Positions 35,766 through 52,908 of a DNA stretch of 64,000 nucleotides are shown here, in pieces. The stretch's first letter is position 1. Each line of letters opens with the position of its first letter. This DNA is from Deltaproteobacteria bacterium IMCC39524 (GTDB taxonomy: Bacteria > Desulfobacterota > Desulfuromonadia > Desulfuromonadales > BM103). The notes beneath the pieces are model-generated. The model searched no databases. It saw only the letters and a list, made by a program, of their open reading frames with translations, and was not told where the DNA came from. The stretch lies in NCBI GenBank assembly GCA_029667085.1, contig JARUHJ010000001.1:868001-932000 (forward strand). Reading direction: 5' to 3'. The translations under genes and the position numbers were made by a program.

Positions 35766-37141
35766 GCTTTTACCCGACAGTTGGCGGCACGATTGATCAA
35801 GCCACCCAGCCAATAAGAAAGACAACCAAGGACAAGGATGGAAATACAGATATAGAGCAGCTTGGTATATTTATGGAGGTCACCCAGCAATGCCGAGTGT
35901 CCACTCGACTCGGTGAAATAGAGTGCTGCACCACTGAGAGCCAGGACAAAGGTAAAGAGATAACTCCAAACCGGGATATCACTTCTTCTGCCCCAAAGAG
36001 AAAAAAAGACCACTGGCGCCAGATACATCGATGCCGTGCCACTCACAGCAACTGCGCTGAACAGATCTTTATTGCCCGTGAACACCAGAAGGAGACCGAG
36101 AAGCATAAAAACAGCCATAACCATGCGGCCATTGCGGAGGCTCATACGAAGAACGCCCATGTCTGAAGCAACCAATTTGGCAGAACTGGAAAGAGTGCTA
36201 TCGAGGGTCGACATCGCCGAAATAATCAGGCAACCACTGAAAACCAACATGGGCCACTCGCCGAGCAGTCGCATCAGAGCATCGTTCATCGATTCTCCAC
36301 TTATGGCGTTGGCTCCCGCCAATACACCCATGCAACCGAAGGTCAAAATGCAGAGGAAACTGATCCAGCAGGCATGGAAAAAGCTGCGTCGGGTCGTTTC
36401 GCGATCGGCTAGAAAACCACGATCCATCATAACCGGATCGTGCATCGGGTAGCTCCAGATCTGCAGCAAAGCAACAACCATCAGAACAGGCCCGGGTTGA
36501 GTCATTTCGAAAGGCTTGAACCAGAGGTCATTAAAGGCAACAGCGTTACTGTTTATCACCAAAAAGACCAACATCACCAAGGTTCCGAGGAACAGGATCA
36601 TCTGAAAAAGATCTGTTCTCAGCGATGCGCGCAAGCCACCCACCATCGAGTAAAAGAGCGTGACACCGGCAAAAGCGAGAATGGTCAGAGTGTAGCTATT
36701 CGATCCGGCGGCACCAAAAAGGATACCGATGACCAGGAGGTTGGCAAAGACCTCGCTGATCAACCTGACGCCAATCACGAAATTGTAGCATCCAGTTCCC
36801 CAGGTCCCGAAACGGGCAGCGAGGAAAGACTGAACACTGTGGAAGCCATGTTCAAAGCGCAGACAATCAACAATACGGCCTCCGGTCATAAAAGAGAAAT
36901 AATAGAAGGCGTATGCCAGGGTCCCCCAGATTCCGTAGTAAAAGCCCAGGATTGCGGCGTTCAGAAGAGAGCGGGCAAATATCCAGGTCGTGACTTGGGA
37001 AAACACCAAGGTCAGCAAACCGGGCTGTTCACCAGAGGCACTCAAACCCTTGAAAAAAGAACCCTCTGTTTGCGCTTTTGGAGAGAGTAAAACCGAACTG
37101 ATAGCAACAAAACCAGCCAAAGCGGGTAAGACGTAATCCAA
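35762..37141 (-). CDS. Sodium:solute symporter family protein
   Basis: This 459-residue polytopic protein of the SSS family has about thirteen hydrophobic segments. Signatures include ATTWIFARSLLNAA-like first helices, GGLRASLRTDLFQM and ISAMSTLDSTLSSSAKLVASD, the sodium-site helix. It would import a small solute with Na+; the solute cannot be named. It overlaps the phosphoesterase gene by 4 bases, so the two are coupled. Its own start faces the 480-base RNA-rich gap. Confidence 0.88.
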   Translation of the reverse strand: MDYVLPALAGFVAISSVLLSPKAQTEGSFFKGLSASGEQPGLLTLVFSQVTTWIFARSLLNAAILGFYYGIWGTLAYAFYYFSFMTGGRIVDCLRFEHGFHSVQSFLAARFGTWGTGCYNFVIGVRLISEVFANLLVIGILFGAAGSNSYTLTILAFAGVTLFYSMVGGLRASLRTDLFQMILFLGTLVMLVFLVINSNAVAFNDLWFKPFEMTQPGPVLMVVALLQIWSYPMHDPVMMDRGFLADRETTRRSFFHACWISFLCILTFGCMGVLAGANAISGESMNDALMRLLGEWPMLVFSGCLIISAMSTLDSTLSSSAKLVASDMGVLRMSLRNGRMVMAVFMLLGLLLVFTGNKDLFSAVAVSGTASMYLAPVVFFSLWGRRSDIPVWSYLFTFVLALSGAALYFTESSGHSALLGDLHKYTKLLYICISILVLGCLSYWLGGLINRAANCRVKA

Positions 37142-37242
37142 GGTGACTCTCCTCAGTTAATCTGTATTTAGGACTCGTTAGTAAAGATTGAACCAACGAA
37201 TATTACTTGAATTAAGTCATCGAGCAAGAGTTTAAATCATTA

Positions 37243-37370
37243 TTTGCAGTCATCGTGACCTGATCTGTCACCCAAGATCAGTTCAGTTTGAACTCAGTGG
37301 GGGAGGCACTTATTCCACAAAGCATTGACCACCAGGGTCTCCTCCTTGGTGGTCATTTTATTTAATTTTT
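37243..37370 (+). ncRNA. Candidate small RNA 1 with anti-SD terminator loop
   Basis: A possible weak promoter (TTGAAT at 37207-37212, 18-base gap, TTTAAA at 37231-37236) precedes a stretch with small inverted repeats (CTGATCT...AGATCAG near 37260) and a GGGGGAGG. It ends in a 9-bp hairpin, arms 37326-37334 and 37347-37355, followed by TTTTATTTAATTTTT. The 12-nt loop GGGTCTCCTCCT carries a sequence complementary to Shine-Dalgarno sites. No open frame of note is present. Confidence 0.45.
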
Positions 37371-37374
37371 CCTA

Positions 37375-37402
37375 TTGACATATCTGACCAAAATGGTATT
37401 CT
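37375..37402 (+). promoter_or_regulatory. Sigma70-type promoter for candidate small RNA 2
   Basis: A perfect TTGACA (37375-37380) is separated by 16 bases from TATTCT (37397-37402). The predicted transcript start is near 37409. Confidence 0.6.
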
Positions 37403-37408
37403 ATTAAT

Positions 37409-37500
37409 CGGAACTTGATTCTTCATGTTCTACCTCCTAAGCAAAACCCATAGAAACCCGTTGCCCCACAGTCTCCCTCCTGAGCTGTGGGGCTTTTTTT
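37409..37500 (+). ncRNA. Candidate small RNA 2 with two anti-SD motifs
   Basis: From the promoter to the end of the T-run is about 92 bases. The 5' part has an unpaired TACCTCCTAA. The 3' hairpin has perfect 9-bp arms GCCCCACAG (37463-37471) and CTGTGGGGC (37485-37493), then seven T. Its 13-nt loop TCTCCCTCCTGAG closely resembles the loop of the hairpin 120 bases upstream. The layout is that of a base-pairing regulatory RNA aimed at ribosome-binding sites. It could instead be a leader plus terminator of unknown use. The remaining 37501-37621 holds only the leader of the dehydrogenase gene. Confidence 0.55.
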
Positions 37501-37621
37501 CTTAAATATCAAAGTCAGAGGAAATATTACTTCTCTGCCAGGCTGTAATGCAAAATGATTGTACGAGAGTTATACTGGTTTCAGCTGTTTTTATTTGAGA
37601 ACCCTACCAAAGGATACCGCT

Positions 37622-38680
37622 ATGTTTAAAGCCAAAGCCTATTCAGCTTCCAGCGCCACCTCACCGTTGGCCCTCGACAGCATCCAGCGCCGCGAGCCCA
37701 TCGAAAGTGATGTGCAGATCGAGATACTGTTCTGTGGCATTTGCCACTCTGATCTGCATACAGCACGTAACGAGTGGAGTAGCGTTATGCCCACGACCTA
37801 TCCCTGCGTGCCGGGTCACGAAATTGTCGGACGGGTCATTAAAGTCGGCAGTAACGTCAAGAATTTCAAACCGGAAGAAATCGTCGGGGTCGGCTGTTTG
37901 GTCGATTCAGACCAGTCTTGTCCCGCGTGCCAGGCCAATGTCGAACAGTTCTGTCCCGACTCAACTTTCACTTACAACTCACCGGACAAACACCTCGGCG
38001 GTGTGACATACGGTGGTTACTCAGAGAGTATTGTTGTCGATGAGAAGTTTGTGCTCAAGGTTCCCGGCAACCTGAAACTGGCCGGGGTTGCGCCACTATT
38101 GTGTGCTGGGATCACAACTTATTCACCGATCCGTCGTTGGGGCGACATCAAAGGGAAGAAGGTCGGCGTGGTCGGTCTTGGTGGCCTCGGACATATGGGG
38201 GTCAAGTTCGCCAAGGCATTTGGAGCCCATGTGGTTGTCTTTACGACCTCACCGAGCAAAAAGGACGATGCTGTGCGTCTTGGTGCAGATGAAGTCATCA
38301 TCTCTACCGATGCAGAACAAATGAAGAAACACGCCGGCAGCTTTGACTTCATTCTTGACACCATCTCGGCCGATCACGACATCAATGTTTACTTGGGTAT
38401 GCTGACCATGGACGGTACAGTCACATTGGTCGGCGCACCTGAGAAGCCGTTAGCCGTCTCTGCTTTCGCCTTGATCTTCGGCCGCAAAAACCTCAATGGC
38501 TCGCTGATTGGCGGGATTAAGGAAACCCAGGAGATGCTTGATTTTTGCGGCGAACACAACATCACATCCGACGTCGAGGTTATTCCCATCCAAAAGGTCA
38601 ACGAAGCCTATGAGCGTTTGGTCAAATCAGATGTGAAGTACCGCTTCTCCATCGATATGGCTTCTCTAAAAGCAGAGTAA
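37622..38680 (+). CDS. Zinc-dependent alcohol dehydrogenase (YahK/CAD-like)
   Basis: The 352-residue medium-chain dehydrogenase binds catalytic zinc through CGICHSD and PGHEIVG. It has a structural-zinc region (CLVDSDQSCPACQANVEQFC) and a Rossmann motif (GLGGLGHMGVKFAKAFG). The cinnamyl-alcohol/YahK group reduces aldehydes with NADPH, and that is the likely activity. The frame opens at 37559, but AAAGGA precedes the ATG at 37622 (MFKAKAYSA). A hairpin terminator follows directly. Confidence 0.92.
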   Translation: MFKAKAYSASSATSPLALDSIQRREPIESDVQIEILFCGICHSDLHTARNEWSSVMPTTYPCVPGHEIVGRVIKVGSNVKNFKPEEIVGVGCLVDSDQSCPACQANVEQFCPDSTFTYNSPDKHLGGVTYGGYSESIVVDEKFVLKVPGNLKLAGVAPLLCAGITTYSPIRRWGDIKGKKVGVVGLGGLGHMGVKFAKAFGAHVVVFTTSPSKKDDAVRLGADEVIISTDAEQMKKHAGSFDFILDTISADHDINVYLGMLTMDGTVTLVGAPEKPLAVSAFALIFGRKNLNGSLIGGIKETQEMLDFCGEHNITSDVEVIPIQKVNEAYERLVKSDVKYRFSIDMASLKAE

Positions 38681-38686
38681 ACGAAA

Positions 38687-38724
38687 ATGGCCACCTGGTT
38701 CAACTCCGGGTGGCCATCTTTATT
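38687..38724 (+). terminator. Terminator of the alcohol dehydrogenase gene
   Basis: ATGGCCACC (38687-38695) pairs with GGTGGCCAT (38709-38717), followed by CTTTATTT. The remaining 38725-39008 has no credible gene; a 62-codon frame there lacks coding character. Confidence 0.75.
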
Positions 38725-39008
38725 TGTCAGGATCAACAAGAATTAGGTCTTTCAGCCAATCCCCTGACACCCTGGAACAATATAGAAATACAAACAAGAA
38801 ACCTTCTTCTTTAACCTCGATCTATGAGTGTGTATACTTGGAAAGTTAATATTTATGTTGGATTATGGAATTCAGTTAAAAAGTCCGATGCCATCACAAA
38901 GGGTGCAGCCGTTTTCATAACAGGCGGAACGTCCATACAAAGATGTCGACCGACAGCTTTCCATAACGACAACAATCACAGAGGGCTTCCCAAAAAAATG
39001 GAGAAACA

Positions 39009-44523: not shown

Positions 44524-44946
44524 TTAATGCTTTAGTTTACTCTTGGCCTCAGCGGTGAGGTCATCAAGAGTTATCGATGAGAGAAATTGTCGAATTTTTT
44601 CACCGAGGCCGTGCCAGACGTTGTGAGTGACGCACTGCTCATCACAGGCACAACCTTTTTGCTGATCCATGCAGGACACCGGCACCAGGGATTCCTCGAC
44701 ACTGTCAATGATTTCATCGACCTGAATGTCCTTCGCCGGTCGAGCCAGCAGGTAACCACCACCTGGGCCACGAACACTCTTGACGATCTGGCCGCGGCGT
44801 AGTTTAACGAAAAGTTGTTCAAGATAAGTCAGGGAAATACTTTCACGTAGTGAAATATCGCGCAAAGAGACAGGCTGGCCTTCTGAATGCAGGTTCAGGT
44901 TAACCATAGCCCTGACTGCGTATTGAGCTTTTGTTGACATGCGCAT
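44524..44946 (-). CDS. iscR: Rrf2 family regulator IscR
   Basis: The 140-residue winged-helix protein starts MRMSTKAQYAVRAMVNL, with the recognition helix around SISLTYLEQLFVKLR. The cluster ligands are Cys92, Cys99, Cys105 and His108 (CMDQQKGCACDEQC-VTH). Spacing is 7-6-3 rather than the E. coli 6-6-3, and there is an extra Cys101. It should sense [2Fe-2S] status and repress its own operon; a matching operator lies upstream of cysE at 45828-45852. Confidence 0.93.
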   Translation of the reverse strand: MRMSTKAQYAVRAMVNLNLHSEGQPVSLRDISLRESISLTYLEQLFVKLRRGQIVKSVRGPGGGYLLARPAKDIQVDEIIDSVEESLVPVSCMDQQKGCACDEQCVTHNVWHGLGEKIRQFLSSITLDDLTAEAKSKLKH

Positions 44947-45819: not shown

Positions 45820-45852
45820 CGGATAGCATACCTGAGTAAAACTGTCAATTAC
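45820..45852 (-). promoter_or_regulatory. cysE-isc promoter overlapped by an IscR type 1 operator
   Basis: A perfect TTGACA (minus strand, 45848-45843) is 17 bases from TATCCG (45825-45820). The 25 bases 45828-45852 match the published type 1 IscR consensus at about 21 of 25 positions, including TTGAC at one side and TCAGGTAT at the other. As in E. coli iscR, the operator covers the -35 region. Confidence 0.65.
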
Positions 45853-45865
45853 TTTTCTAGAGATA

Positions 45866-47634: not shown

Positions 47635-49257
47635 ATGCCGGAATTTTTTTACCAGAACCCTCTTCCCGTTGAGGCGGACAAAACCACTTACTGCAAGATT
47701 GAAGGCTCGGAGAAGTATGTCAGCACCGTCAACTTTGACGGCAAGGACATTCTCAAAGTTGATCCGGAAGCAATCACAGTCCTCGCTAACGCGGCCATGA
47801 AGGACGTCTCCTTTCTGTTGCGCAAAGAGCATAATGACCAGGTTGGCAAAATCTTGACCGACCCCGAGGCCTCGCGCAACGACAAGGGTGTCGCTATGGC
47901 CTTCCTTAAGAACGCAATGGTCGCAGCCCAGTTCGACCTGCCAACTTGCCAGGACACAGGCACGGCCACTGTCGTCGCCAAGAAAGGTCAACAGGTCTGG
48001 ACCGGCGTCAATGACGCCGAGTACATCTCCAAAGGCATCTACAAGACCTACACCGAAGAGAACCTGCGCTACAGCCAGACCGTAGCTCTAGATATGTACA
48101 AAGAGAAGAATACCGGCACCAACCTGCCGGCCCAGATCGACCTATTCGCCACGGAAGGTGACTCCTACAAGTTCCTCTTCATGGCTAAAGGCGGCGGTTC
48201 TGCGAACAAGACCATGCTTTTCCAGGAGACCAAGGCGCTGCTCACCCCTGAGAAACTCTTTGACTACCTGGTGGCCAAGATGAAAACGCTGGGCACAGCG
48301 GCCTGCCCTCCTTACCACCTTGCATTCGTCATCGGCGGCACCTCAGCCGACGCAGTCATGAAGACAGTCAAGCTGGCGACCGCCAAGGAACTTGACGGCC
48401 TGCCAACTGAAGGTAACGACCACGGTCAGGCCTTCCGTGACATCGAACTTGAAGAGAAGTTGCAGAAAGCTGCCCAGGAACTCGGCATTGGCGCCCAGTT
48501 CGGCGGCAAGTACTTTACTCACGATGTCCGCGTCATTCGCCTCCCTCGTCACGGCGCCTCCTGCCCTCTCGGCATGGCTGTTTCCTGCTCTGCAGACCGT
48601 AACATCAAAGCCAAGATCACCAGGGACGGTCTTTTTGTCGAAGAGATGGATCGCGATCCGGGTCGTCTGCTTCCCGAGCAGTACCGCATGGCCAAGCACG
48701 AGCATGGCACCAAGCTCGACCTGAACCAGCCAATGGAGAACATCCTTGCCGAGCTGACCAAACTCAAGTGCGGCGACGCTCTACTCCTCAATGGCACCAT
48801 CGTGGTTGGGCGCGACATCGCTCACTCCAAGTTCAAGGAAATCCTTGATAGCGGGCAGCCACTCCCTGAGTACCTCAAGAAACACCCGATCTACTATGCT
48901 GGCCCGGCCAAGACTCCACCAGGACGCCCTTCCGGATCTTTCGGCCCCACCACCGCGGGACGTATGGACTCTTACGTTGGCCTGCTCCAGGAAAACGGCG
49001 GCTCTATGGTCATGATCGCCAAAGGCAACCGCTCTCAACAAGTTACTGATGCCTGTGCCAAGTTCGGTGGTTTCTACCTCGGCTCTATCGGTGGTCCGGC
49101 CGCCCTGCTCGCCGACGAGAACATCACCAAGGTCGAATGTATCGACTTCCCGGAACTCGGCATGGAAGCCGTCTGGAAGATTGAAGTCCAGAACTTCCCG
49201 GCTTACATTCTGGTTGATGACAAAGGGAATGACTTCTTCAAGCAGTTGGGTCTCTAA
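47635..49257 (+). CDS. Class I (iron-sulfur) fumarate hydratase
   Basis: The 540-residue single-chain enzyme matches E. coli FumA/FumB in length. Cluster and active-site segments are [44 protein letters not shown] and [13 protein letters not shown]. It interconverts fumarate and malate in the citric acid cycle with an oxygen-sensitive [4Fe-4S] cluster, fitting an anaerobic lifestyle. AAAGGAG precedes the ATG. It is monocistronic, with its own promoter and terminator. Confidence 0.96.
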
Positions 49258-49276
49258 AGATTCACCTCATAACGAC

Positions 49277-49307
49277 AAAAAAGCCCCGGACTCTCCGGGG
49301 CTTTTTT
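49277..49307. terminator. Strong bidirectional terminator
   Basis: AAAAAAGCCCCGGA and TCCGGGGCTTTTTT are perfectly complementary around CTC. It separates the convergent fumarase and lrgB genes. Confidence 0.9.
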
Positions 49308-49345
49308 GTGTCTTCAGTTTTCAATTCACAACGGGTGGCACAGAA

Positions 49346-52674: not shown

Positions 52675-52908
52675 TCAGTCGCGACCACCATGAAGGCGGA
52701 AATTACCGTCTGCGGAGGTGATCGAAGTGATGGCATGTTTGTAAAGCAAGAGGTCACCGCTGCTGTCTACCAAAACACAAAAGCTGTCAAAAGACTTAAT
52801 ATGGCCCTTGAGTTTTTCGCCAGACATCATGGAAATTTCCACAACGACTCTCTCTTTACGTGCCTGATTAAGATATTGATCCTGGATATTGAATGGTGAT
52901 TTTGCCAT
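52675..52908 (-). CDS. hfq: RNA chaperone Hfq
   Basis: The 77-residue Sm-like protein starts MAKSPFNIQDQYLNQARKE with an AAGGAG site upstream; the frame is open further, but not coding. Sm1 spans SGEKLKGHIKSFDSFCVLV. Sm2 is YKHAITSI, where the YKH of the proximal RNA site is kept. The linker between them reads DSSGDLLL instead of the usual KNTVSQMV, a modest divergence. Hfq brings small RNAs to mRNAs, which matters for the small-RNA candidates at 37.2-37.5 kb. It is the last gene after mutL and miaA, a common order. Confidence 0.96.
   Translation of the reverse strand: MAKSPFNIQDQYLNQARKERVVVEISMMSGEKLKGHIKSFDSFCVLVDSSGDLLLYKHAITSITSADGNFRLHGGRD

Follow-up and report, generated by a model that had tools for sequence, protein, structure and literature searches.

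The question raised by this locus is whether two terminator-like hairpins, lying close together in a gene-free gap of Deltaproteobacteria bacterium IMCC39524, belong to small regulatory RNAs (sRNAs) and whether they are related to each other. The gap of 480 bases is part of the 64 000-nucleotide stretch of DNA analysed here (the window). It separates a 459-amino acid open reading frame (ORF) on the minus strand (start at 37141), which has no Pfam match at 1e-3, from a zinc-type dehydrogenase gene (37622–38680) whose best NCBIfam match, the aldehyde reductase Ahr, is under its cut-off. An initial annotation had described the hairpins as tandem sibling sRNAs, each with a 9-bp stem and an anti-Shine–Dalgarno loop. 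Both lie within the gap as claimed, on the plus strand at 37326–37355 (hairpin 1, unit 1) and 37463–37493 (hairpin 2, unit 2), and both fold far better than shuffled sequences (z = −5.9 and −6.3, respectively). Hairpin 2 has the 9-pair stem, with three further pairs, and the loop CCUCCU. The description does not fit hairpin 1, which folds into 12 pairs and leaves a 6-nt loop, UCUCCU, so that its CCUCC is partly in the stem. The promoter proposed for unit 2 (TTGACA at 37375, a 16-base spacer and TATTCT) and the 92-nt stretch assigned to its transcript (37409–37500) were found as described. Consensus scans restricted to the stretch gave two promoter-like matches against 1.5 expected and two terminator-like matches against 1.8 expected, hairpin 2 not being among them; neither count is above chance. 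The signal beyond chance for unit 2 comes from the sRNA family described below. No match to Rfam 15 at gathering score is present in the window; the best weak match, ftsZ-DE over hairpin 1 (E = 0.047), is far under the cut-off.

Unit 2 (37375–37500) is a copy of an apparently undescribed multicopy family of sRNAs of about 90 nt. A covariance model trained on 29 copies, the window copy among them, scores 37409–37500 at 105.4 bits (E = 4.4e-23). In its own genome the model has 26 matches at E ≤ 0.01; 12 of them exceed 80 bits, and the remaining 14 are partial, truncated or divergent. The copies of this genome are 61–98% identical (mean 75%). The siblings that the initial annotation expected do exist for unit 2, and they are located elsewhere in the genome, not in tandem. 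With 37220–37520 as a DNA query, 19 of 40 related genomes gave matches below 1e-10 and 35 gave them at E ≤ 1, many of the order-level matches being weak; many genomes match repeatedly. With the covariance model, 84 of the 136 genomes of the order match at E ≤ 0.01. They comprise all 22 genomes of the same taxonomic family, with 2 to 27 matches each, and 62 genomes of other families, with one to three weaker matches each except for one genome with seven. Among 277 genomes of the class, 52 match at E ≤ 1e-4 (22 from the same family, 26 from the rest of the order and four from outside the order). Named genomes, scanned with an exact pattern, gave 46 stretches, and 43 of these come from records with Desulfuromonadales, Desulfuromonas, Geobacteraceae or Deltaproteobacteria in the title. 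Among the three remaining records, one of unclassified Proteobacteria has a complete copy; those of Bacteriovoracaceae and Desulfarculus have no terminator matching a loose pattern. When 13 related loci were compared with Rfam, no sRNA family was matched and one tRNA was the only match. A literature search returned no description of such an sRNA family among the matches listed.

The conservation of the family was analysed on 99 unique full-length copies retained from 243 matches, copies not near full length being left out. Three divergent copies (L256_1071m, L180_3834m and L098_1432m) were set aside to give a set of 96, and were kept for the tally of promoter dyads. Mean column identity reaches 0.74 across the gene; the flanks, compared ungapped, average 0.28 on either side. 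In the 96 copies, 94.8 per cent of the cells of a two-helix structure are standard pairs, against 91.8 per cent after shuffling and 39.3–51.5 per cent for slid partners, the tested structure being derived from the same sequences and so having an advantage over the slid ones. Compensatory change is far more frequent than in shuffled data: 34 cells are altered on both sides, against 5.4, and none of 500 shuffles is as high (93 of the 96 rows are distinct). The two-sided changes fall in five of the seven pairs of the 5′ stem and five of the nine pairs of the terminator stem; RNAalifold, applied to the first 29 copies, gives the terminator stem only. The second exposed CCTCC that had been noted near the 5′ end is a family feature: 91 of the 96 copies have it among their first 45 bases. 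A strict CCTCC is found in the 3′ part of 75 copies and in both parts of 71; the 3′ part lacks it in 20 copies that have the 5′ motif. Stems kept around a freely varying loop, the pattern named beforehand as adverse to a regulatory RNA, are the opposite of what unit 2 presents, its stems changing in compensation and CCUCC being mostly kept. The compensatory stem changes, together with the kept CCUCC and promoter, point to selection on the RNA. These data support unit 2 as a conserved sRNA gene, ending in a terminator, that carries two anti-Shine–Dalgarno motifs and has real siblings, its transcription being predicted from the sequence.

All parts of this gene lie on the plus strand. The sigma-70-type promoter (37375–37402) is conserved in the aligned copies, with a −10 element that is TATTCT in the window copy and TAAKAT in most others. 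Embedded in it is an operator-like dyad of 25 bp (ATATCTGACCAAAATGGTATTCTAT, 37380–37404; pattern match with two mismatches, 0 expected), the right half of which is degenerate in the window. In the RNA itself, a CCUCC linker joins a 5′ stem-loop to a terminator hairpin with a T7 tail (37463–37500); both stem-loops covary, and the terminator loop carries CCTCC at 37476–37480. The stretch TTCTTCATGTTCTACCTCCT (37419–37438) is the reverse complement of AGGAGG-TAGAAC-ATGAAGAA. More generally, the motif TCAT-N5..8-CCTCC, found in 76 of the 96 copies (N5 in 24, N6 in 41, N7 in 10 and N8 in one) and absent in this register from 20, is the complement of GGAGG-N-ATGA, that is, of a whole translation start site with its natural spacing. 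Features of the Hfq type are the U7 tail of the terminator and the hfq gene, which is in the window as the initial annotation had stated (Pfam-matched part at 52708–52887, minus strand; PF17209, 80 bits against a cut-off of 27).

We propose that 37375–37500 encodes a trans-acting sRNA of a large sibling family. Each sRNA, probably acting with Hfq, would lay UUCUUCAU-N-ACCUCCU over AGGAGG-N-AUGAAGAA start sites, and this pairing would block ribosome loading; the terminator loop may provide a second anti-Shine–Dalgarno contact. Such start sites would be typical of proteins beginning with Met-Lys-Lys, many of them secreted. The pattern AGGAGGN{4,8}ATGAAGAA occurs at 17 places in the genome and at one in a backward-read control. 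Twelve of the 17 places are sRNA copies (one truncated), and five are starts of other ORFs (18, 45, 106, 144 and 274 amino acids), four of which have a signal-peptide-like start by eye. The pairing of the window RNA with all five, which were picked for their complementarity to the sRNA, is better than the mean of shuffled targets, and only L269 (−33.2 kcal/mol) and L278 (−26.1 kcal/mol) beat all 200 shuffles. The ORF start at L269 is AGGAGGTAACAATGAAGAA. The five ORFs are candidate targets only, and their repression is predicted from pairing energies.

The dyad between the −35 and −10 elements is common to all 99 promoters (consensus ATACCTGACCAAAAAGGTAATATAT). Positions C9 and G17 are invariant, T6 and A8 are each kept in 98 copies, and A replaces G at position 7 in 16; TAACC half-sites occur in some copies. 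With at most two mismatches, the pattern TAYCTKACYNNNNNRGTMAGRTA is found at 12 places in the genome and at none in a backward control. Eight of these places are strong copies, out of the 12, and a ninth is a truncated copy; of the remaining three, one precedes a malate synthase-like gene, another a metallo-hydrolase-like gene, and the last is inside an ORF; the window copy, too degenerate for this pattern, is among the strong copies missed. The dyads at L129:1501–1523 and L122:1501–1523, before genes called malate synthase-like and metallo-hydrolase-like from family matches under cut-off, might mark further members of the regulon. The layout of the sRNA dyad resembles the type 1 site of Escherichia coli IscR. 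A similar layout is seen in the GAC-N7-GTC core of RisR, an Rrf2 protein of Myxococcus, in the available part of its description (PMC9973013).

A related dyad (GTAATTGACAGTTTTACTCAGGTAT, 45829–45853, minus strand) lies in the window in the promoter of an operon composed of cysE, an iscR-like gene, a cysteine desulfurase gene (iscS) and a NifU/IscU-type scaffold gene (iscU). The IscR-like Rrf2 protein (44524–44946, minus strand), a candidate regulator of the sRNAs, has IscR as its best-matching family (NCBIfam TIGR02010, E = 4e-48) with 162.6 bits, below the cut-off of 207.55, and the Rrf2 superfamily above its cut-off. The comparison was extended across the order to 30 loci out of 58 genomes with a match, of which L300 was left out, its upstream DNA being absent. 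In 28 of the 29 loci, which are related by descent, the top match of the sRNA dyad matrix within 1.5 kb upstream of iscR is at the promoter before cysE; permuted matrices pick it at a mean of 0.5 and a maximum of 17 of the same loci, and none of 500 reaches 28. The exception is L289, where the isc site is outscored by a neighbouring dyad of the same promoter and ranks second. The sRNA and isc consensuses are identical at 19 of 25 positions (0 of 200 000 shuffles), the left and right half-sites differing between the two kinds of promoter. A dyad of sRNA strength was not found directly before each Rrf2 gene; it was found one gene upstream, before cysE. An IscR-type regulator is thus the best candidate for the sRNA promoters, because the sRNA matrix picks the isc promoter so consistently. 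It stays a candidate, because the loci share descent, the half-sites differ, the protein does not reach the IscR cut-off and the genome has further Rrf2 genes above the Pfam cut-off.

One of these other Rrf2 genes has a dyad of its own (TTGACAATATTTGTAAT) just upstream (L133), and the same sRNA family, with the same action, might be controlled by a second Rrf2 protein or by a repressor of another family, in which case the signal would not be Fe–S status. The TAACC half-sites and the two own sites before the malate synthase-like and metallo-hydrolase-like genes, which are not obvious Fe–S genes, would suit such a regulator. We nevertheless consider it unlikely, given that the sRNA matrix selects the isc promoter in all loci but L289, where the isc site is second. 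The reading that we prefer, and regard as probable, is that unit 2 is a trans-acting sRNA of a sibling family that masks start sites and carries the operator of an IscR-like regulator, the regulator, Hfq and the targets being assigned by prediction. The operator would be bound by the IscR-like protein encoded in the isc operon, and the siblings would be transcribed together once the operator is vacated; the proposed consequence is that the sRNAs rise when iron or Fe–S clusters are short. In RyhB-like systems, shortage of iron or clusters releases a repressing sRNA, and the regulator is Fur. If IscR control holds, the present family would follow the same iron-shortage logic without Fur, and it differs in its many copies and its general anti-start-site motif.

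Streptococci, Listeria and Bacteroides are already known to have sibling sRNAs that mask start sites, five to fifteen of them in a genome (PMC3091779, PMC4132741, PMC11697453), and the following comparisons refer to the available parts of these reports. The CiaRH-dependent csRNAs of streptococci combine anti-Shine–Dalgarno and anti-AUG motifs, CAU being present in 53 of 61 csRNAs (PMC3091779). Like the present family, they comprise several similar sRNAs in each genome that answer to a single regulator (here a candidate), and they share its two stem-loops and the combination of both motifs. The present family differs in its lineage, in its 12 strong copies, in having no Rfam match here and in its candidate regulator, which is IscR-like and not CiaR; its anti-AUG lies in the 5′ hairpin, whereas that of csRNAs is wholly unpaired. 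The multicopy, LisRK-dependent LhrC sRNAs of Listeria carry UCCC in three places (PMC4132741) and likewise repeat a C-rich anti-Shine–Dalgarno motif in a single-stranded stretch and in the terminator loop; here CCUCC stands in two places, with CAU, and sequence kinship was compared through Rfam only. The FopS sRNAs of Bacteroides, with 12 to 15 copies per genome, repress translation near start codons (PMC11697453). They too form a large paralogous family acting near start codons, as predicted here, and differ in the phylum and in the RNA-binding protein RbpB; the available text of the report does not mention a Shine–Dalgarno motif for FopS. As far as could be tested here, what is new is the lineage, together with the set of motifs, the number of copies and the IscR-like dyad; the kind of RNA, sibling anti-start-site sRNAs, is already known.

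Part of the family is accompanied by a dispersed REP-like repeat, scattered in the own genome, which has a GGCCACC...GGTGGCC hairpin with conserved sequence upstream of it, and a tail resembling TCAGGGTCAGTAAGAATT. The left part of the repeat is found upstream of 36 of 98 sRNA copies and the tail after 23 of 99, with both in 20. In relative G009, homology of the dehydrogenase begins at 37507, just past the terminator, and no sRNA match was found upstream of the dehydrogenase in the stretch examined; in relative G005 the sRNA and the dehydrogenase are together. These associations, and the truncation of some own copies, could be explained if the unit were a selfish or structural REP- or MITE-like repeat with a chance promoter and terminator and no regulatory function. 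This is quite improbable, as no repeat is detected upstream of 62 of the 98 copies, the stems change in compensation while CCUCC and the promoter are conserved, and most other matching genomes of the order have weaker related matches in one to three copies. Copies of the family come and go, perhaps with the repeat. No sRNA copy was found in viral contigs with the exact pattern, and no match in phages or plasmids with blastn.

A more far-reaching version, to which we give slightly less than even weight, is that an Fe–S-sensing IscR directly represses a greatly amplified battery of sRNAs, each mimicking the complement of a start site, that loss of Fe–S clusters silences many secreted and envelope proteins simultaneously and that the copies are gained and lost with the REP-like element. 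On that reading, the strength of the response could evolve by copy number, since copies come and go with the element. The Desulfuromonadales have a family with 12 strong copies in one genome and, at E ≤ 0.01, as many as 27 matches in another, and with promoters that look like the target of an Fe–S regulator. Its copy number varies among close relatives, which makes it possible to test why a bacterium would maintain one sRNA in many copies.

Unit 1 is best read as the truncated end of the REP-like repeat, unrelated to the sRNA, and its CCTCC as a chance variant. The left part of the repeat, with hairpin 1, matches at 37308–37352 (plus strand; repeat profile positions 67–111, E = 6e-5). This match ends at flank position 288, and 27 of the 36 matches upstream of sRNA copies end at 285–289 of 300; about a third of the copies are preceded by a repeat end like hairpin 1. 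On the transporter side, synteny with two relatives stops at 37304 and 37297. The loop of the repeat hairpin is often GGGTTCGATCC. The 39 repeat extracts, taken from the stretches examined in the own genome, represent 37 distinct hairpins, and CCTCC is present in none of the 37 others; among 24 hairpins upstream of sRNA copies, caught by a hairpin pattern and fewer than the 36 repeat-profile matches, only that of the window has it, and no relative that keeps a CCTCC loop in hairpin 1 was found. A tandem pair of sibling sRNAs, as suggested by the CTCC-rich apical sequence of both window hairpins, is hardly tenable in view of these counts and of the fit of hairpin 1 to the repeat profile and not to the sRNA covariance model, which scores 37409–37500 and reports nothing at hairpin 1.

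A small minus-strand protein (AGGAGGTAGAACATGAAGAA...), favoured by a perfect Shine–Dalgarno sequence and an ATG, has a negligible probability and was ruled out: the 70 testable of 99 copies are spread over all three frames (33, 19 and 18), and 33 of the 70 stop within 15 codons. A CsrA sponge was set aside, the loops of the transcribed strand showing CCUCC and not GGA motifs by eye, and integron cassettes were dropped once ORFs on both strands and scattered hairpins were seen.

Some sRNA copies (L223, L224 and L024; contigs C14, C5 and C7) stand beside proline-tRNA-like fragments by eye, some at contig ends; ARAGORN reports no tRNA beside the copies on C5, C7 and C14, and the fragments are possible island junctions. 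A second match to the sRNA model in the window (49240–49308, 16.7 bits, E = 0.054) is probably due to chance. Divergent relatives without the dyad promoter occur in the own genome or in other families (L055, L056, L057, L058, L065, L086 and L020); they have an upstream part with TGTGGCAG, then CTTC...CCTCC and a similar CCTCC terminator. Another copy of the repeat hairpin and tail follows the dehydrogenase gene at 38686–38760 (plus strand), where, as at L191–L227, the repeat, a REP- or MITE-like element about 200 bases long, shows its GGCCACC hairpin and TCAGGGTCAG tail.
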